Part shown: positions 12,759 to 44,027 of the stretch, piece after piece
Numbering within the stretch: position 1 is the stretch's first letter
How the letters are laid out: the number at the start of each line of letters is the position of its first letter
Translations under genes and position numbers: made by a program
The notes under the pieces: generated by a model
Database searches by the model: none
Told to the model about the DNA's origin: nothing
What the model saw: only the letters and a program-made list of their open reading frames with translations
Origin: Clostridiales bacterium
GTDB taxonomy: Bacteria > Bacillota > Clostridia > Lachnospirales > Lachnospiraceae
NCBI GenBank assembly: GCA_020859995.1
Contig: JAJBVE010000079.1
Span: 1-64,000, forward strand
Reading direction: 5' to 3'
DNA: 64,000 bases

Positions 12759-12820
12759 AAATTCAATCTCCCATGAAAAGTAAACGGTTCCTGCCGTTTC
12801 TCATGAACAACGCCCATTGC

Positions 12821-13503
12821 TCAAAGCAGCCATACATCCGGATCCTGCTTCTTTGCGCTTTTCTCCGGCTCCGGAGATCGAGCAGGCGACGGCTCGTCGT
12901 CTCCTGCACGGTCCTGCGCGTCATTGGCAGGGGGCTGCTGCGGTTGCGTCCCCTCTCTTCGGTCGTGGGATATCCCGCCCGAAGGGCGGAGATGCCACCC
13001 GGCGAGGGCAGGCCGCTCCTCCCGTTCCGATATGCTTCGCGTGAGTCGGGGCTGCTGCATTTTTTCTCTGACGTTGGGGAAGCCGGCCTCGCTTTCCTTT
13101 CGCGCGCGCGCTTCCAGTGTATGCAGCACTTTGCAGAACTGCCCGTACTCAGCATCAGAGAGGCCCTCCAGCAGCCAGTCATAAAAAAGTCTTCCGCTGA
13201 GCCCGCGTCATTCATCTTTGCCGTCTTTTCCTCCGGAAACAGCAGCTGGCTGCGGGCATCTTTCGGATTGCTCCTGCGCGATAGATATCCCTTCTGCTCC
13301 AGATTGACTGCCCGCCGCGCAAGCGCGCCCTTATCCATGCCGAGCCGTGCGCAGGCATCCTTCTGTGAAATGCCAGGCTGCTGCTTCACAAGTCTCAGAA
13401 GCTCATATTCCGCTGTCCCAAGCCCTGCCTCACGCATCAGGCGTACCGACAGCAGGTTAGCGGTCTGCGCGATTTTCGATATTTCATTTCCAGAATCACT
13501 CAT
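12821..13503 (-). pseudogene. MarR family transcriptional regulator, frameshifted in a run of six T residues
   Basis: The first 105 or so residues are a MarR-type winged helix (QQPGISQKDACARLGMDKGA for the recognition region, then GYLSRRSNPKDARSQLL for the wing). After EDFF the reading frame loses the family pattern. One base away, a second frame continues it: YDWLLEGLSDAEYGQFCKVL, then a helix ending in ESEAGFPNVREKMQ, and runs to 12821. The switch point is the T6 run (A6 at 13183-13188 on the plus strand); seven T residues would restore the frame. The original frame runs on to a stop at 12763. The C-terminal extension past residue about 150 is encoded by a REP-like palindrome (12949-13011). 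Start 13503 follows AGGGGTGA. Confidence 0.7.
12949..13011. repeat. REP-like palindromic element inside the MarR-type gene
   Basis: The core is GGGATATCCC (12967-12976) followed by a CGCCCGAAGGGCG hairpin and GATGCCACCCGGCGAGGG. The same modules occur, in the opposite orientation, inside the GH115 gene at 15421-15477 and 16451-16502, and as a tandem array at 38899-39016. Confidence 0.7.
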
Positions 13504-13725
13504 TGTATCACCCCTGTTTTCATCTCATATATAGTTGCACCATCAACCAGAAACATATTACCACAGCCGCTTACATCTGGCAAGCATTATCTTAGGCTTC
13601 GGCAGCAGGCGCGAGCAGCTTTAGCTGCTAATTTCCAATCGCGGCTCTGTGCATAAAAAAGCGTGCAGACCCTCCGCCTGCACGCCTCCGTAAAAACAAT
13701 CCTGTGGCAGATACTCCCAGCCACA

Positions 13726-14253
13726 TTAAACCCTTATCACATAATCCTGCTTACGCGGTTTCGCTGCCGGAGCATCGCCCGCGCCGTAGCCCAGAATACA
13801 ATTGGCTACGCCGACATAATTCTCATCAAGTCCCCAGCTCTTCATAAGCGCAAGACCTTCCTCAGAAGAAAAAGCCTCCTTCGCGCGGTAAATATAGCAG
13901 GAATCCACGCCAACCGCATGCGCGGCATTCAAAAGGTTTCCCGCCACCAGGCAGGCATCCTCAAACCATGTAGGAGCTGCCTCTTTATTGCCAAATACAA
14001 TCGCGACCACCGGCGCGCCATAGAACGGATCCACATCCGTCTTCCCCATCACGGCGGCATTCAGGCCGCTGATCTTTTTAACCAGTTCCGGATCCTGCAC
14101 CAGCACAATCACAGGCGACTGCCGCCCCATACCGGTAGGCGCGTACGTAGCCGCTTCAAGGATCGCGTCAAGCTTATCCTGCTCAATGGGGCGCTCCGAA
14201 TAGCTGCGCACACTGCGTCGTGTTTTCAGACTTTCCAATACCATATTTTCCAT
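13726..14253 (-). CDS. Nitroreductase family protein
   Basis: The 175-residue flavoprotein has the FMN-binding signature of the family: SLKTRRSVRSYSERPI at the N-terminus, AATYAPTGMGRQSPVIVLV, the central EDACLVAGNLLNAAHAVGVD helix and CILGYG near the C-terminus. Members reduce nitro compounds, quinones or flavins with NAD(P)H in the cytoplasm; the natural substrate is not predictable. Start 14253 is seven bases past an AGGAGGA site; the ATG two codons earlier would be too close to it. It is monocistronic. Confidence 0.9.
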   Translation of the reverse strand: MENMVLESLKTRRSVRSYSERPIEQDKLDAILEAATYAPTGMGRQSPVIVLVQDPELVKKISGLNAAVMGKTDVDPFYGAPVVAIVFGNKEAAPTWFEDACLVAGNLLNAAHAVGVDSCYIYRAKEAFSSEEGLALMKSWGLDENYVGVANCILGYGAGDAPAAKPRKQDYVIRV

Positions 14254-14415
14254 GATCATTCCTCCTGGTTGGTACAAAATCATAAAAGCAGCCAAAATCC
14301 CCGAATGTTACCTGGGGTTCACCGCGATCATTATACTCCCTCCGGCCGTTTTTTACAATCCCTAACCTATCCCAGCGCCTTTAATTTTTTAGCAATTTTT
14401 TAGCAAAATACGTGT

Positions 14416-14454
14416 AGAGGGTCACAGGTTCGAGTCCAGCTATCTCCACTTTTA
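14416..14454 (+). other. Possible 3'-end remnant of a tRNA gene
   Basis: The segment contains a T-loop-like GGTTCGAGTCC and an acceptor-like TATCTCCA, as in alanine tRNAs ending in a TCTCCACCA-type sequence. The T-stem is imperfect (ACAGG against CCAGC), the CCA is not intact, and no D-arm or anticodon arm precedes it. It may be an attachment-site scar of an integrated element next to the polysaccharide locus. No matching second site was found in the window. Confidence 0.35.
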
Positions 14455-14505
14455 AGAGCCGGGTATGATTGCCCGCTCTTTGCATAGCTGCTGTGCAAAT
14501 GATTG

Positions 14506-16920
14506 TCATTTTCCTTTTCGTTTGTGGCCAAACGGCCGGCGGCTGCAGTCATTCTCTGTTTTTTTCTCCATCAGTTCAAACAATTCCTGGTTGTTCAGAT
14601 GGTTTTCAAAATTCAGAATCATGCGCACGTTCCGGTCTTCTTTTGCGTAGAGGAAGTCCCGCTGCCATTCGTAAAAGTGCGGACCGTCGCCGAGATTGCG
14701 GATATAGCCCATCACGGTTTCCAGCACCCAGGCGGTCTGCGCGATATCGGTCAGGCACTCGTTCCGGTAGAAATTTTGCCATACGTCGTGCTCGCGGTCC
14801 CGCATTGCGCAGCGTGCCCGCAGATATTCTTTCCGGCCTTTTCCCACCAGATAAAAGGCCTTCTGATACTCGCCTTCATAAGCTTCTTCGAGACCGCGGC
14901 ACACCAGATAGCCGCCTTTCGCGCAGTACGCATAGATTTTCGCCTGCAGGTAAATGCTGTCCTCAAACAGCGTTTTCGCGGAGCCGGTCAGTTTTGCAGA
15001 AAGACTCCCGCAAGTGTCCAGCAGGGCGCCATAGGACTGCATCCCCGCCTCGCAGTGCTGCTGATACCAGCTGATCTGCTCTGTGAGCGTCTCCGCTTTT
15101 TTTGCCCATTGAAACTCTAACGCAGCACTGCCTGAATCCTTCAGGTACTGGGATACCAGTATCCGGATTCCATGGTTGTAAAACTGCTCTCCGGCATGGT
15201 CGTCCTCGTGAGGACCGTAGGAGACCGCTGAGGCAAAATACTGCTGCAGGCAGGCCGAGAGTTCGTCCAGGTGCTCTGAGCCATAATAGTTCTGCAGGTA
15301 TTGCTTGCAGTGTTCTTCTGCAAATGCCACTGGGACAGGCGTTTCCATCGACTCGCCGGGTTTTGCCCCCAATCTCTGATTGCGGGGCGTGGTATGTCCG
15401 CAATCTTTGATTGGGGATGTGGGCATCTCCGCCCTCTGGACGGGATATCTCTCAGCCGAAGGGAGGGGGCGTTTCCACATCTCTGCAACCAGATCCAGCA
15501 TATACACATGAGGTTTTATATTCGAACAGTTGATCAGCCAGAAGTCGTTCACACCATGCCGCAGCACTTCATTCAGTTCACGCACCACGAATTCAGGGGA
15601 GTTGGGAAGCATAGTGATATGGTTTGCCGCCTGCAAATCATAGAAGGAAACGTGATAGTAGATTCCGTGGTGCTCTCCTTTTGGAATTCCATTGGAAGCT
15701 CCGTAATCTCCTCCGCCGATTTTTTTCGGCAGCATATCTGTACGCTGAGTATCCTCGTTATTAAAGATGCTTTCATCATTGATTTTATTCGCGGATGCTC
15801 CCAGGCTGTACGATGTCTGCTGATTACGATCCTGCTCATTGCGATCCAGCAAATTATGAGCCTCCGGCAGCGCCAGTACACGCGGGTTGTGGTTCCCCTG
15901 CCGCCGCGATACCATCTTCCCATAGCCATTGTCCGCCCAGACCTTTATGACCTGTTCGGGCAGCTTCAGACAGCCCTTCTGGTACAGCTCCATGGTCTCT
16001 CCATACAGGTTCGTACAGCAGATGGCTCCCGGCTGTGCTTCCTGCACCATTTCATACTGGAGCTGAATCAGCTCACTGATCAGCTTTCCCCGCGCTTCGT
16101 CGGTCTGGTATGCAGGATCATTTTCCCAGAAGGGAGCGTCTCCCTGGCCGCGAAAGCCGAGGTTCCATACGGTTTTGCGGTCCTTCTGCTCTTCGATCCC
16201 CCGTCTCCACAGTGCCTGAAATTTTTCCGGATATTTTGCATAGGAAGGCTGCAGATCCGGATATTCTCTGGCAAAAATCGGTGCTCCAAGCGGCTCTGCG
16301 TGGTGATGGGTCACATACAGCCCCATGGAGGAGGCCAATGGCCGGTATTTTTCGGAATTGCGGTCTGTCCCAGGGATCACCAGGTTTCCGCCCAGACGCA
16401 ACAATGCCTCCAGAGCCATCTCCCATGGGCGGTCCGGTTTCTGATTAACAGGTCCGCCCTCTGGGCGGGATATCCGTCGACCGCTGGGAAGGGGCGTTTC
16501 CATCATCCAGTCGGCCAGCAGAACCTCATCATTTATAAACCACCCGCGAAAGCGGATGGCGTAAGGCTCTGAAGCGTAGTGAAACCCAGCCGGAATTTCA
16601 ACAAATGCTTTCTGCTCTATCACCTGGTCGTTCCAGAACCAGAACGGCAAAATGCCCAGAAACCGGCGGCTGATCTCGTACAGGCCGTAGATAAAACCCA
16701 GCTCGTCCGACGCTGAGAGAATCAGCGCATCCTCTGCTGCATCCAGGGTGAAGCACTCCTCTGCTTCGTCTCCAGGTATGAGGCGAATTTCACCGCCAGC
16801 ATCTGCCCGTTCGGGCATCGGTATAATGACTTTCCTGATATCGCGCAGCAAACTGGCAGCGGCTTTTTGCGTCGCCTCACTGGGAACGCCAGTTATTTTC
16901 GTACCTTTCCCGATTATCAT
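14506..16920 (-). CDS. Glycoside hydrolase family 115-like protein (xylan/pectin alpha-glucuronidase) with two in-frame repeat insertions
   Basis: This 804-residue protein resembles GH115, whose members release 4-O-methylglucuronic or glucuronic acid side chains from xylan and related glycans. Family-like segments are GFIYGLYEISRRFLG, IRFRGWFINDEVLLADW, GLYVTHHHAEPLG, KVWADNGYG and IYYHVSFYDLQAANHI. No signal peptide is present, so it likely acts on imported oligosaccharides. Two stretches do not belong to the family: residues about 140-157 (PLPSGRRISRPEGGPVN) and about 480-526 (PLPSAERYPVQRAEMP and on). Both are encoded by copies of a palindromic repeat also found in intergenic DNA. The start at 16920 follows CGGAG. 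It is the last gene after the AAA/PD-(D/E)XK gene at 16968, 47 bases away. Confidence 0.75.
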   Translation of the reverse strand: MIIGKGTKITGVPSEATQKAAASLLRDIRKVIIPMPERADAGGEIRLIPGDEAEECFTLDAAEDALILSASDELGFIYGLYEISRRFLGILPFWFWNDQVIEQKAFVEIPAGFHYASEPYAIRFRGWFINDEVLLADWMMETPLPSGRRISRPEGGPVNQKPDRPWEMALEALLRLGGNLVIPGTDRNSEKYRPLASSMGLYVTHHHAEPLGAPIFAREYPDLQPSYAKYPEKFQALWRRGIEEQKDRKTVWNLGFRGQGDAPFWENDPAYQTDEARGKLISELIQLQYEMVQEAQPGAICCTNLYGETMELYQKGCLKLPEQVIKVWADNGYGKMVSRRQGNHNPRVLALPEAHNLLDRNEQDRNQQTSYSLGASANKINDESIFNNEDTQRTDMLPKKIGGGDYGASNGIPKGEHHGIYYHVSFYDLQAANHITMLPNSPEFVVRELNEVLRHGVNDFWLINCSNIKPHVYMLDLVAEMWKRPLPSAERYPVQRAEMPTSPIKDCGHTTPRNQRLGAKPGESMETPVPVAFAEEHCKQYLQNYYGSEHLDELSACLQQYFASAVSYGPHEDDHAGEQFYNHGIRILVSQYLKDSGSAALEFQWAKKAETLTEQISWYQQHCEAGMQSYGALLDTCGSLSAKLTGSAKTLFEDSIYLQAKIYAYCAKGGYLVCRGLEEAYEGEYQKAFYLVGKGRKEYLRARCAMRDREHDVWQNFYRNECLTDIAQTAWVLETVMGYIRNLGDGPHFYEWQRDFLYAKEDRNVRMILNFENHLNNQELFELMEKKTENDCSRRPFGHKRKGK
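15367..15477. repeat. REP-like element with an adjacent inverted repeat, inside the GH115 gene (copy 1)
   Basis: At 15421-15477 are the modules GGCATCTCCGCCCTCTGG, GGGATATCTC and GGGGGCGTTTCC. Next to it, 15367-15385 and 15398-15416 form an inverted repeat with 16 of 19 positions pairing. The whole insertion keeps the GH115 frame open and is flanked on both sides by GGCGTTTCCA. Confidence 0.7.
16451..16502. repeat. REP-like element inside the GH115 gene (copy 2)
   Basis: GGTCCGCCCTCTGGGCGGG, GGGATATCC and GGGGCGTTTCC repeat the modules of the 15421 copy in the same orientation. It adds about 17 residues in frame between the FRGWFINDE segment and the following conserved region. Confidence 0.7.
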
Positions 16921-16967: not shown

Positions 16968-18551
16968 TTATACAACCGCTTCGATTAGTAGCTTATCACC
17001 AAGAACAATTTCCTGAATCCCCGTGGTTTTCTTCTTATTAAAATTAAAGCTCAGCATATATCCCTTTTTCAGATGAAAATAATCCAGATACCCAGAAAGC
17101 TGCGCTTCTCCACGCTGATTATACGCATTTCCCCGCCACAGTTTAAGTTCAAGAACATTTTGCTCGCCTTTATAAAAAATCACCAGATCCATGCGCTCGC
17201 TGTTACGGGTCTGCGGCTCAATGCTATAATTTCCAACACCATTAATGATTGGTTTGAGAAAAAGGAGAAAATATTTTCTACCCACATTTTCCAGGAACCT
17301 GTCATCTTCCTGGCTATATAATTCTTCAAATGTCTCAATAAACTTTTCCAATATTCTCCGAATGTCCAGATGTCCACCCACAAAAAAATAGTTTCGTTCC
17401 CGCTCACCGGCATCATACATCCTGCTCGTCACAAATTCTTCCGCGATAAAATTATTGTACAGCACTGCCTCAAATATCCTGTTTGATATCACCGCGCGTT
17501 CGTTTTCATTGCGAATAAATCCAAACATAGCTGCATCTTTAATATAAGAGTTTGTCGCAACATAAGGAATGGATTTGCCGTTAAACAACAATTCATAAAC
17601 TACTGTCCGCAGTTCCGGATAGGTTTCCAGTTTCCCCATAAGAGATTCATAAAGAGGATTGTCTTCTTTTACAAGTCTTTTTTCCGCCTCATAAAATCCT
17701 TCTTTCGTCCAGGCACTGTTTTTGCCCGGGAATTCGCCGCTTCCCACAATTTTTTCATCCATAAGCTTGCAGATACGCGAAACCAGCACTGGATATCCTG
17801 ATGTATAACTATATATCAGTTCAGAAAGCTTTTGAATATCCATACCCGTGTGATAATCGTTTTCATACTGAGCGAGCATATTTTTAATATCTTCTGTAGA
17901 AAAGCTCATGTCAATGTCGAAATCAGCAGCAATATTCCAGGGACTATTCATCTTATGTTCTTCGTCAGGTCGAATTTTTCTCTTAATACTTCGGACATCA
18001 TAAACACCCGCGAGAATCACTGACCAAAAGGCAGCTACTTCCGGACGTTTCAAATAGTAGGCACGCAATTGCGCCAGAAAATCCAGGAACACCTGATTAT
18101 TGGTAGCAGTATCCACCTCATCAATCAGTAATACAATCTTTCTGTCTGCCTTTTGACACCACATCTTTAAAACTCTGAACAGATCCTGCAGCGAATAATT
18201 CTGCTCTATCGGTTTTTTCCCAAGTGCTTTAAGTTTCTCTTCTATTCCGTTTGGAAACGAAGGAACATTATCCAGAAGTTCATTCGCAAACGCTGCTACA
18301 AATGCAGAAATATTCTGAAAGCACCCTGCATCCAGTGTTTGAAAATCAAGGCTTACCACCTCATAATCTCTTCTCAAATATCGCGCCAGAGCACGCAATG
18401 TAGTTGTTTTACCATACTGTCTGGCTCTGTTTATCGTAAAATATTCTCCCTGATCTATCATCTCCCGGATTGCTTTCAATCTGGAATCCAGATTCACCAT
18501 ATAATGTCGGTTTGGGTCGCAGGCACCACTTACATTAAATCTTTTCGCCAT
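16968..18551 (-). CDS. AAA-ATPase-like protein with C-terminal PD-(D/E)XK nuclease domain (paralogue A)
   Basis: The 527-residue protein has an N-terminal AAA-type domain with a Walker A variant (INRARQYGKTTTLRALARYL) and a Walker B (KIVLLIDEVDTATNNQVFL). The C-terminal part contains the PD-(D/E)XK signature spread over NSERMDLVIFYKGEQNVLELKLWRG. Such proteins are abundant in gut Bacteroidetes and Clostridia; their function is unproven and they are often treated as mobile or defence-related. A close paralogue (526 residues, almost identical over the C-terminal half) lies at 36242-37822 in the same orientation. The start at 18551 follows AAAGGGAGA. It sits between the SGNH esterase and GH115 genes. 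Confidence 0.85.
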   Translation of the reverse strand: MAKRFNVSGACDPNRHYMVNLDSRLKAIREMIDQGEYFTINRARQYGKTTTLRALARYLRRDYEVVSLDFQTLDAGCFQNISAFVAAFANELLDNVPSFPNGIEEKLKALGKKPIEQNYSLQDLFRVLKMWCQKADRKIVLLIDEVDTATNNQVFLDFLAQLRAYYLKRPEVAAFWSVILAGVYDVRSIKRKIRPDEEHKMNSPWNIAADFDIDMSFSTEDIKNMLAQYENDYHTGMDIQKLSELIYSYTSGYPVLVSRICKLMDEKIVGSGEFPGKNSAWTKEGFYEAEKRLVKEDNPLYESLMGKLETYPELRTVVYELLFNGKSIPYVATNSYIKDAAMFGFIRNENERAVISNRIFEAVLYNNFIAEEFVTSRMYDAGERERNYFFVGGHLDIRRILEKFIETFEELYSQEDDRFLENVGRKYFLLFLKPIINGVGNYSIEPQTRNSERMDLVIFYKGEQNVLELKLWRGNAYNQRGEAQLSGYLDYFHLKKGYMLSFNFNKKKTTGIQEIVLGDKLLIEAVV

Positions 18552-31683: not shown

Positions 31684-31861
31684 TTTTCCTCCTTCTGGTC
31701 GGCGCAGGCGCCGGAAATTTCTTCATCTCACGTTCCACACTCGCAGCACAGCTGCTCGTTGACCCTCGAAATTTCCCGACGCAAGCGTCGGAAATTTCTT
31801 CAGGTCATATTATATCGCACTCGAAAATGAATGGCAATGAAGTTCTGGAAAATACAAATAT
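31684..31861. repeat. Intergenic region with inverted copy of the 76-bp element
   Basis: About 31740-31807 matches, in reverse complement, the element duplicated at 320-471: CTCGTTGACCCTCGAAATTT, then GACGCAAGCGTC and AAATTTCTTCAGGTCA. A partial second unit (TTCTGGTCGGCGCAGGCGCC) precedes it at 31691-31725. No gene is supported between 31684 and 32103. Confidence 0.65.
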
Positions 31862-36241: not shown

Positions 36242-37822
36242 TTATACAACCGCTTCAATCAGCAGCTTATCTCCCAATACGATTTCCTGTATCCCCGGTT
36301 TTTTATTTTTATTAAAACAAAAGCTCAGCATATATCCTTTTTTCAGATGAAAATAGTCCAGATACCCGGAAAGCTGTGCCTCTCCGCGCTGATTGTATGC
36401 ATTTCCGCGCCAGAGCTTGAGTTCGAGGATGTTTTGCTCTCCTTTATAATAAATCACCAGATCCATGCGCTCACTGTTCCGGGTCTGCGGCTCAATACTG
36501 TAGTTTCCGACACCATTGATAATTGGTTTGAGAAAAAGGAGAAAATATTTTCTTCCAACATTTTCCAGAAATCTTTCATCTTCCTGACTATACAGTTCTT
36601 CAAATGTCTCGATAAATTTTTCCAGTATTCTCCGGATATCCAGATGCCCGCCAACAAAAAAATAATTTCTTTCCCTCTCACCGGCATCATACATTTTGCT
36701 TGTTATAAATTCTTCCGCTATAAAATTATTATACAGCACCGCCTCGAAAATCCTGTTCGAAATCACCGCACGGTCGTTTTCGCAGCGAATAAATCCGAAC
36801 ATCGCCGCATCTTTGATGTAAGGACTTGTAGCAACATATGGAATGGACTTGCCATTAAACAGCAATTCATAAATAACCGTTCGTAATTCCGGATAAGTTT
36901 CCAGTTTTCCCATAAGGGATTCATATAACGGATTGTCTTCTCTGACAATCCTCTTCTCTGCTTCATAAAATCCTTCTTTGGTCCATGCACTCTTTCTGTC
37001 AGGAAATACATCGCTTCCCGCAATCTTCTCGTCCAGAAGCTTGCAAATACGGGAGACCAGAACCGGATATCCCGATGTGTAATTATAAATCAGCTGAGAA
37101 ACTTCCTGAATATCCATACCTGTATGGTAATCGTTCTCATACTGATCAATCATATTTGCGATATCCTTTACGGAAAAGCTCATGTCGATATCAAAATCGG
37201 CAGCAATGTTCCAAGGACTATTCACTTTATGAGCTTCGTCTGGTCTGATCTTTCTTTTAATACTGCGGATGTCATAAACACCGGCGAGAATCACAGACTG
37301 AAAAGCTGCAATCTCCGGACGTTCCAGATAAGAGGCTCTCAACTGCGCCAGAAAATCCAGAAACACCTGATTGTTTGACGCGCTGTCCACTTCATCTATA
37401 ATCAAAACAATGGGCTGAACTGCTTCTTTACACCATAAATCCAAAACCGCAAATAAAGACTGCAAGGAGTTTGCATTTCCATCTCTTTTTGTAATGATAT
37501 GCAATTTATCTCGAATTCCTTCCGGAAAGTCAGACCCCCGGCGAAGTAATTCATTGGCGAAAGCCGATGCAAAAGCTGCTTCATTTTCATATGACGCAGA
37601 GCCAAGTCTCTGAAAATCCAGGCTTATCACTTCATATTCACTTCTTAAAAATCTCGTAAGAGCCTGCAAAGTAGTTGTTTTCCCATACTGTCTCGCCCGG
37701 TTGATTGCAAAGTATTCCCCATCATCCACCATATTGCGGATTTTCTGTAATCTTTCGTTCAGATTCACCATATAATGTCGATTCGGGTCACAGGCACCAT
37801 TTACATTAAACCGTTTTGCCAT
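36242..37822 (-). CDS. AAA-ATPase-like protein with C-terminal PD-(D/E)XK nuclease domain (paralogue B)
   Basis: The 526-residue protein is a close relative of the one at 16968-18551: the same INRARQYGKTTTLQAL Walker A, IVLIIDEVDSASNNQVFL Walker B, and NSERMDLVIYYKGEQNILEL nuclease core. Identity is nearly complete over the C-terminal half and lower between residues 60 and 160, where the inserted and partner-contacting parts probably differ. The two genes are in direct orientation about 19 kb apart, on either side of the pectin genes. Function is unknown. It may form a unit with the DUF89 gene, whose stop is 60 bases upstream of its start. The start at 37822 follows GGGAGAAG. Confidence 0.85.
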   Translation of the reverse strand: MAKRFNVNGACDPNRHYMVNLNERLQKIRNMVDDGEYFAINRARQYGKTTTLQALTRFLRSEYEVISLDFQRLGSASYENEAAFASAFANELLRRGSDFPEGIRDKLHIITKRDGNANSLQSLFAVLDLWCKEAVQPIVLIIDEVDSASNNQVFLDFLAQLRASYLERPEIAAFQSVILAGVYDIRSIKRKIRPDEAHKVNSPWNIAADFDIDMSFSVKDIANMIDQYENDYHTGMDIQEVSQLIYNYTSGYPVLVSRICKLLDEKIAGSDVFPDRKSAWTKEGFYEAEKRIVREDNPLYESLMGKLETYPELRTVIYELLFNGKSIPYVATSPYIKDAAMFGFIRCENDRAVISNRIFEAVLYNNFIAEEFITSKMYDAGERERNYFFVGGHLDIRRILEKFIETFEELYSQEDERFLENVGRKYFLLFLKPIINGVGNYSIEPQTRNSERMDLVIYYKGEQNILELKLWRGNAYNQRGEAQLSGYLDYFHLKKGYMLSFCFNKNKKPGIQEIVLGDKLLIEAVV

Positions 37823-38820: not shown

Positions 38821-39148
38821 GGAAAAATGCCCCCTCACTGCGTCTCCGCTACCGCTCCGGTCGGTGCTAAACGCCTGCCACTGGCAGGCAGCACCGGCGA
38901 ATATCCCATGCGAAGCGTGGGATGCCCACCCGGCGTGGGATATCCCATGCGAAGCGTGGGATGCCGCCCCGGCGAGGGATATCCCATGCGAAGCGTGGGA
39001 TGCCGCCCCGGCGAGGGATCAGGTCGGTTCGTCCATGTTAAGTTCGCTTCGCGAAGGACGAACCTGCTAAGGAAACGCCCCCTCACTGCGTTCGGCGGCA
39101 GGTCGGTTCGTCCATATCAAATTCGCTTCGCGAAGGACGAACCTGCCG
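38821..39148. repeat. Mosaic cluster of palindromic REP-like repeats
   Basis: Three tandem units of 39-40 bp start at 38899, 38939 and 38978, each with GATATCCC, ATGCGAAGCGTGGGATGCC and a CCGGCGAGG tail. A second palindrome, GGTCGGTTCGTCC ... GGACGAACCTGC, occurs at about 39019-39069 and again at 39097-39148. Between and before them stand copies of GCCCCCTCACTGCG. The second palindrome enters the 3' end of nhaC and supplies its last residues. The GATATCCC module is shared with the repeats inside the GH115 and MarR-type genes. Confidence 0.8.
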
Positions 39149-40777: not shown

Positions 40778-41127
40778 TTTTATTGCCCTTTCCTGTCGAA
40801 TGCCAATATATGTGCATCTTCTACATTCATAAGCTTCATTTTCTTAAATTATACACTCATTATTCCTGTTTCCGCAAGGCAAATCTACAAAACACCTTAT
40901 ACGCCCCTGTCTGCAAAGTGAGCGGTTATTCCGATAATTCATTCAATTTTCAGTAAAGCATACTTCTCTGGCTTTGCCAACAGTAAATCTTTCTGTATTT
41001 GTTTTTTCACGCAATGCGCGATTAATTTGGCAAATCTGATTTCAACAAAGCACTTTTTCCTTCCGAAATGGAAGCAGAAAAATAACCAAACGTCTGATAA
41101 CTGATCTGTTCATAGTTTGTTAAGCGA
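40778..41127. other. Intergenic region upstream of nhaC, with the left direct repeat
   Basis: No gene is supported. It should hold the nhaC promoter on the minus strand. It contains the left copy (40902-40958) of a direct repeat whose right copy lies at 43971-44027. Confidence 0.6.
40902..40958. repeat. Left copy of a 57-bp direct repeat
   Basis: The first 34 bases (CGCCCCTGTCTGCAAAGTGA ... TTCCGAT) are identical to 43971-44004 and the remaining 23 match imperfectly. In the right copy the sequence is a working terminator; here the left arm of the stem is changed, so the hairpin is lost. Confidence 0.85.
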
Positions 41128-43960: not shown

Positions 43961-43998
43961 AAAAAATAACCGCCCCTGTCTGCAAAGTGAGCGGTTAT
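43961..43998 (-). terminator. Terminator of the NitT/TauT-type ABC operon
   Basis: On the minus strand ATAACCGC pairs with GCGGTTAT across a loop and is followed by TTTTTT (A6 at 43961-43966 on the plus strand). It lies about 90 bases past the permease gene. Confidence 0.75.
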
Positions 43999-44027
43999 TC
44001 CGATCATGAATTCAATTATCAGCAAAG
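43971..44027. repeat. Right copy of a 57-bp direct repeat
   Basis: Identical over its first 34 bases to 40902-40935. It contains most of the ABC operon terminator. Its presence on both sides of the AAA/TOPRIM segment suggests insertion with duplication, or recombination between copies. Confidence 0.85.

Follow-up and report, generated by a model that had tools for sequence, protein, structure and literature searches.

How does a palindromic repeat come to lie both inside protein-coding genes and between them, and what kind of element is it? The question is raised by a 64,000-nt stretch of DNA (the window) from a Clostridiales bacterium of the Lachnospiraceae (assembly GCA_020859995.1, contig JAJBVE010000079.1, here C158), in which related repeat copies occur in a MarR-type gene, twice in a GH115 glycosidase gene and in intergenic DNA. 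An initial annotation, made from the letters of the window, had described a repetitive extragenic palindromic (REP)-like element inserted in frame, in the manner of the Rickettsia palindromic elements (RPEs). We consider it highly probable, at roughly 85%, that the copies in the window are decayed remnants of a modular hairpin element that is mobile but non-autonomous. Its copies are dispersed and patchy among genomes, are present or absent at orthologous sites, are inserted in frame on both strands, and have stems that are paired yet differ between copies.

The identity of the repeat is given by 39067..39147 of the window (minus strand), where a whole unit with the stem GGTTCGTCC matches the Rfam family GA-cis (RF02987) with 57.7 bits, against a gathering score of 34.7 bits. 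Rfam types this family as 'Gene; sRNA', that is, small RNA. Read in the GA-cis sense, a whole unit of about 75-85 nt consists of AG, a stem of 7-10 bp with a GNA loop (mostly GCGAAGC), a linker that is mostly CGACCTGCC, and a second hairpin, GCCGA..GAGGGGGCG, followed by TTTCC, the end of the whole unit being written GGGGGCGTTTCC; by eye, the element runs from AG.. to ..GTTTCC. A separate 39-nt module, U (CTCGCCGGGTGGCATCCTCGCCCTTCGGGCGGGATATCC), is lodged after the linker in some copies, which is why four GA-cis matches in the genome are 119-123 nt long rather than the usual ~80 nt. The start of U has 36 exact matches in the genome, against none for a reversed-pattern control, and U is also found in several other composites among 30 loci read. 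The GGGATATCCC part of the repeat as first noted belongs to U, not to the GA-cis core, and the MarR and GH115 copies are pieces of a GA-cis unit that carries U after its linker. A third repeated word, Y (CCCAATCTCTGATTG), lies inside the first GH115 site. The GA-cis identity, the nested module, the locus-specific stems and a departure from frame in the MarR-type gene were all missing from the initial annotation.

The likeness of the window copies was borne out by direct comparison and by genome searches. Positions 15428-15477 and 16453-16502, both in the GH115 gene, are 84% identical, and the MarR copy runs in the opposite direction, as had been stated, being 82% complementary to the first (12947-12996 against 15422-15471) and 80% to the second (12947-12990 against 16453-16496). 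The window has 13 occurrences of the word GGGATATC where 2.29 would be expected, and 0 of 100 shuffles reach 13; GGAAACGCCCC by itself is not above chance there (three occurrences with at most one mismatch, 1.13 expected, and three reached by 12 of 100 shuffles). A 62-nt piece of the first GH115 site matches 23 places in its own genome at E ≤ 10, five of which cover at least 48 nt: itself, C158:16453 (E 3e-9), C97:13486 (3e-9), C158:12947 (1e-7) and C71:64446 (8e-4). An Rfam scan of the window gave no GA-cis match at the gathering score at 12947-13056, 15339-15477 or 16451-16502; these copies are tied to the repeat by BLAST and by R1, a model built from the own genome, with a weak R1 match at the second GH115 site (E 0.87).

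The intergenic copy that had been reported proved longer and more complex than described. Three tandem 39-nt U-type units occupy 38901..39019 (minus strand), two of them matching the U start exactly; they are followed by a first copy of the hairpin H at 39020..39067 (minus strand), 94% identical to the H at 39099-39146 within the whole GA-cis unit, which comprises H and K. In the tail of the MarR-type gene, a GA-cis-derived composite at 12947..13056 (minus strand, sense to the gene) contains a diverged K end (~12947-12967), U (12968-13006), the linker (13007-13014) and a diverged H (~13013-13056), with an R1 match at 12984-13056 (30.5 bits, E 2.9e-4). The element does lie within the open reading frame (ORF) at 12763..13503 (minus strand; PF12802, PF01047), as first claimed. 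That ORF, however, departs upstream of the element from the frame of its orthologues in genomes G027 and G042 of the same genus, so the native frame cannot be read off the mechanical ORF, and we do not count this copy as in frame. By eye, both orthologues have GA-cis-like peptides in the same tail.

The GH115 gene (14506..16920, minus strand; PF15979) is a single open frame of 804 residues with two insertions, both on the plus strand and hence antisense to the gene. Site 1 (15339..15477, residues ~482-528) is a mosaic of K (15451-15476), the end of U (15438-15450) and, by eye, a second K-like end (~15339-15350), with the Y word exact at 15368-15382 and with two mismatches at 15399-15413. Site 2 (16451..16502, residues 140-157) contains the end of U (16463-16475) and K (16476-16501). 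The two copies had been said to share a reading frame. A one-base difference between their C runs does bring PLPS into frame in both copies; the ATATCCC part, by contrast, falls in a different frame in each (ERYPVQRAE and RRISRPEGG).

Beyond the window the repeat is abundant, and a genome search that might have left these copies alone instead gave 36 GA-cis matches at E ≤ 10, with 21 above the gathering score (35.8-62.6 bits), and many R1 matches. The genome (G000) is a draft of 4.40 Mb in 239 contigs, 97% complete. R1, for which 150 of 1,424 first-look candidates were scored, has at least 101 matches at E ≤ 1 and at least 28 at E < 1e-7, and GA-cis marks 11 places in the 17 loci first collected by partial matches. 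Among 47 genomes of the genus, 24 match GA-cis at E ≤ 0.01, compared with 2 of 97 other relatives; of 397 genomes sampled from the family, 31 have a match at E ≤ 0.001, 29 of them above the cut-off, with matches in 28 of 334 genera. At E ≤ 10, 11 of 14 control genomes also match, none over the gathering score, and at the stricter limits of E ≤ 0.01 and E ≤ 0.001 the controls have no match. Such patchiness together with high copy number is the pattern that a mobile repeat would give. As for a vehicle, viral contigs held no exact match to the GA-cis pattern, and a plasmid or phage carrier was set aside: weak partial matches in nine plasmid records and one phage record (E 0.2-0.7) were judged to be chance, none of the nine plasmid records covering 80% of the query.

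The clearest sign of insertion comes from orthologous sites that are occupied in one genome and empty in another. The haem-synthesis gene hemB is matched (E ≤ 1e-60) in 38 of the 47 genomes, and of 30 loci read the relevant loop was present in 29. The empty site of G042 reads TTATCCAC-ATACCC, and G027 is empty too; the occupied site of G000 reads TTATCCAC, then 112 nt, then TCCAC-ATACCC, so that the insert amounts to 117 nt (39 codons) once the second TCCAC is added to the 112 nt, and a TCCAC stands on each side. G000 and G001 share this insert, a GA-cis with U; G008 and G039 have at the same position a GA-cis without U and with a different stem, G013 and G014 have none, and G008 has 78 nt more there than G014. 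In G021 an in-frame, sense-strand array of 78-nt units runs up to the contig end. Between G000 and G001 the insert differs at 1 of 117 positions, against 73 of 1,005 elsewhere (Fisher p 0.005) and 5 of 120 in the adjoining 60 nt of each flank; as this is a single genome pair, we build nothing on it. In the G000 protein, Pfam ALAD matches in two stretches, the better of which begins at profile position 133 and residue 183, with the element preceding it. Other extra residues occur in the HemB loop of G033, G036, G010, G031, G037, G015 and G040, and are possibly decayed inserts.

The two GH115 sites were compared in 17 of 38 homologues. Had the inserts been conserved structure of the enzyme, the initial idea would have failed; site 2 (18 residues, 54 nt net relative to G042) is instead absent from all 17, of which L081 has a shorter, unrelated insertion, and site 1 is absent from 16. 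The seventeenth, G042, has an array there of three K units 75 nt apart, each starting TGTGGAAACGCC, with two different stems between them. The differing stems of these neighbouring units would favour repeated insertion at a re-created target over plain tandem duplication; other arrays, for example that of G021, consist of like units. A third case is the loop of a proton-antiporter subunit (30 loci read), which is short in several species and carries other extra residues in others, whereas G000, G028 (an identical protein), G042 and G033 (with a run of N) have differing in-frame arrangements of GA-cis and U.

In-frame residence is not confined to these genes. We trained a codon score on 34 long ORFs of the window and used it to examine 58 of the 101 R1 matches for a spanning open frame; 10 of the 28 strongest copies (E < 1e-7) lie within one, and by this test the remaining strong copies are intergenic or at gene ends. 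The hosts are a helicase, a GH2 protein, two rhamnosidase-like and two AAA-ATPase-like proteins, HemB, a GH43 protein, a PGA_cap protein and the antiporter subunit. All ten match a Pfam or NCBIfam family, and in six the family matches flank or cross the element (HemB, GH2, rhamnosidase, AAA-ATPase-like/PDDEXK_9, GH43 and antiporter). Relative to GA-cis, four of the ten copies are sense and six antisense to the gene, and the inserted peptides use several frames: ARSASE (C59, C26), QREAS (C71), ETPP (C24, C97) and KRPF (C206). GH115 contributes two further in-frame copies, and a weaker copy in a flavoprotein gene (C39:7973, E 3e-5) looks, from its extra residues, like a thirteenth case. Elsewhere in the genus, 8 of the 21 copies tested are in frame with positive codon scores on both sides (21 of the 28 loci first fetched; L110 and L115-L120 were left out), and the AAA-ATPase site of C130 is occupied in the opposite orientation in another genome (L103). 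The predicted proteins would thus carry extra, repeat-derived peptides. Separately, an ORF of the SASA esterase family in G031 (L256 10-2487) has two GA-cis copies inside it, and its relative in G015 (L260 886-2559) has one.

The stems differ between copies while remaining paired. When the register is held fixed rather than picked for the best stem, 30 of 49 copies (28 from the own genome, with the weak L052 and L055 left out, and 21 from others) pair at 7 of 7 positions, whereas shuffling arms between copies gives a mean of 0.93 and a maximum of 6; 38 of the 49 stem arms are distinct. Sixteen copies have fewer than six pairs, roughly half of these being off register by one base. Among copies selected for pairing, the arms agree by 51% between copies, against 95% for chosen positions of the linker and second hairpin; a figure of 99% pairing comes from the same kind of selection, and we do not take it as proof. 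If the units at the antiporter site are taken as orthologous, the stem of G033 has two differences, both compensated, from those of G000 and G042. Some stems are shared between loci (GAGCCGGAC by two, GCGCCGCC by several), so stems are not new at every insertion. Pairing may be maintained by selection or by copying between the arms during replication. Of 30 distinct stems, again taken from a set picked for pairing, 29 have GAA, GGA or GCA as their central triloop; when closed by G-C pairs, GNA loops form extraordinarily stable DNA mini-hairpins (PMC4686876). A second hairpin family in the same genome, CGCAGGCCGCGCCAATCGCGCAGCGATTTTC..GCGCGGCTTTCATTG, has a like loop type and a smaller hairpin, CGTACTCGCGCAGCGAGTATGGA, ahead of it (C58:7977, C97:3302, C156:10360, C143:11717, C231:4408, C176:43120).

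A mobile hairpin element of this kind could move as a folded single strand, recognised by its shape by an enzyme acting in trans, and could join at TCC-type sites with a short duplication through single-strand or staggered-cut chemistry. Copies in genes would persist only where the frame is kept, no stop arises and the receiving loop is tolerant, and the survivors would then decay under the constraints of the host gene itself. More specifically, and more tentatively, since we put this short of even odds, GA-cis may be mainly a shape-recognised DNA element rather than an RNA gene: one that moves as a folded single strand with very stable GNA mini-hairpins, takes in the modules U and Y, recolonises the same gene loops through re-created TCC-type targets, and adds peptides to core proteins. 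An enzyme that reads shape and not the letters of the stem would, on this account, allow copy lineages to rewrite their stems yet keep them paired.

Among the alternatives, a non-autonomous derivative of a DDE insertion sequence, that is, a miniature inverted-repeat transposable element (MITE), is doubtful but deserves the most weight. A staggered-cut transposase would fit the TCCAC repeats at hemB and the flanks in general: in 31 copies, flank pairs match beyond permutation (p 0.0084 for 5-mers, 0.0014 for 6-mers), as they do in the 21 copies without a partial repeat of their own after the unit (p 0.015 for 5-mers; 0 of 5,000 permutations for 6-mers). The base before the stem, read in 32 of 37 listed copies, is A in all 32, two of which represent one hemB site; one of these two (L195) was dropped from the permutation. 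The 37 copies show by eye no clear terminal inverted repeat, however, and no search for a parent element was made.

That GA-cis is a functional structured RNA whose location in genes is incidental seems to us unlikely, although its Rfam type and its paired stems suit such a role. In RNA folds of seven whole copies, several are rarely reached by shuffles (of 200, the number equalling or bettering the copy was 3 for L026, 4 for L031, 3 for L047, 2 for L039, 1 for L044, 31 for L036 and 17 for L027). Yet the best DNA fold includes the first hairpin in all seven copies, the best RNA fold in five of the seven, and the triloops follow the GNA rule of DNA mini-hairpins; both hairpins appear as in the family in about four of seven DNA folds, with DNA z-scores of -1.1 to -3.1. 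RNAalifold did not recover the first stem from one alignment (A1), owing to misaligned sequences, and the fixed-register count was used in its place. The two orientations of the in-gene copies, the variation in presence at one site between genomes of a genus, and the tandem arrays also speak against an RNA gene, and an RNA role alongside the nature of a DNA element is compatible with this evidence.

The route suggested initially, a REP moved by a REP-associated tyrosine (RAYT, or Y1) transposase, did not hold up and is now improbable. The repeat is palindromic, dispersed and partly in genes, as are the REPs described in PMC3733652, and Y1 transposases do occur in other genomes of the genus. 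Nevertheless, at E ≤ 1e-5 Y1_Tnp has no match in this 97% complete genome or in 6 of 15 GA-cis-rich genomes (at least 20 matches), and the 9 of 15 rich genomes that have one compare with 10 of 23 GA-cis-free genomes of the genus (Fisher p 0.51; nine genomes with 1-14 matches left out), hence no genus-wide association. By reading, GTAG precedes the stem in 0 of 22 aligned copies, with CGTC after the stem in 3 and CGACC in 9. A REPtron-like flanked transposase likewise gained no support: the 10 ORFs from 10 stretches in which copies lie ~1-2 kb apart yielded no transposase family in a Pfam scan, matching MatE, FAD-binding, GHKL, SASA (twice), Fpg, ParB and, weakly, GH2, with two lacking a match. 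Y1 enzymes typically insert without duplicating their target, which also counts against this route.

Ordinary loop expansion or conserved host-protein structure is very improbable, even though several species of the genus also have other extra residues in their HemB and antiporter loops, given that the inserts resemble intergenic copies at the DNA level, are absent from homologues, recur in about nine kinds of unrelated protein, and face empty sites at GH115 site 2 and hemB.

Several observations weigh against a mobile, gene-invading hairpin element. The MarR copy (z 0.15 as DNA, -0.38 as RNA) and a 59-nt piece of GH115 site 1 (0.66 and -1.06) fold no better than shuffles, as decay would lead one to expect. 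The flanking repeat is exact at one empty site and most other pairs are imperfect; neither the Y1 search nor the ORFs between copies gave a mobilising enzyme, movement was not observed, and the compared genomes are all drafts. In four of the ten hosts the family match lies on one side of the element only, and two of these (C206 and C199) have a slightly negative codon score on one flank. The frame test requires a spanning open frame and is therefore blind to inserts that broke genes. Finally, the claim that the repeat is open in several frames is true (4.16 of 6), but hardly above base composition (shuffles 3.84, sd 0.16, maximum 4.23), and we dropped the idea of a special openness of its frames.

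Elsewhere in the window, two tandem copies of a different 76-nt repeat (317-468) are 95% alike; at 31739-31814, 31 kb away, lies an inverted copy that is 86% complementary. The paralogous ORFs at 16968-18551 and 36242-37822 are 86% and 74% identical over stretches at both ends, and a 57-nt direct repeat (40902-40958 and 43971-44027, 91% identical) has 3 kb between its copies.

Compared by description, the mobile hairpin element resembles the RPEs, which PMC2229807 and PMC10969869 present as palindromic repeats of ~100-150 bp, in frame in unrelated, often conserved genes and also intergenic. The likeness drawn at the outset is upheld, as the repeat is palindromic, multi-copy, coding and intergenic, in both orientations, and its in-frame inserts in GH115 and hemB are absent from most aligned relatives; the other phylum, the locus-specific stems, the nested module, the arrays in genes and the use of both strands set it apart. 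GTAG- and CGTC-tagged REPs are, according to PMC3733652, high-copy hairpins, some in genes, where clusters encode 43-82 residues, and CGTC types also occur without a dedicated transposase; that text has no word starting with 'Clostridi'. Here the two-hairpin unit is longer, lacks GTAG and only occasionally has CGTC beside the stem. MITEs, for which in-frame fusions are known (PMC10969869), are likewise small and gene-free with short flanking repeats, but terminal inverted repeats are not evident here and a parent transposon is not known. With Rfam's GA-cis the 21 copies above the gathering score agree, whereas what is filed there as an sRNA appears here as a dispersed repeat partly in coding genes. 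We would therefore describe the element as functioning like RPEs and intragenic REPs, without filing it under REP/RAYT, as neither the transposase nor the tag was established, and as a MITE only doubtfully, as inverted ends are not evident.

We recognised no earlier description of the element in the literature on palindromic elements of clostridia, Lachnospiraceae and Firmicutes, a body of text that includes few subscription papers; in the same partial coverage, which does not extend to the original GA-cis paper, the Rfam 15 paper is the only one to mention RF02987 or to use GA-cis as the name of an RNA. Gene-invading, tolerated palindromic DNA is already known in Rickettsia and some REP-rich bacteria. 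Here it is met in Lachnospiraceae, in core genes such as hemB and that of an antiporter subunit and in glycosidases, with the unusual features of locus-specific yet paired stems, GNA mini-hairpin loops and U nested in GA-cis. The analysis shows no role for the host, and the Rfam family, typed as sRNA, deserves re-examination. As genomes of one genus offer natural pairs with and without the insert, the uptake of foreign peptides by proteins becomes testable, as does the way in which a hairpin can change its letters and yet stay paired.

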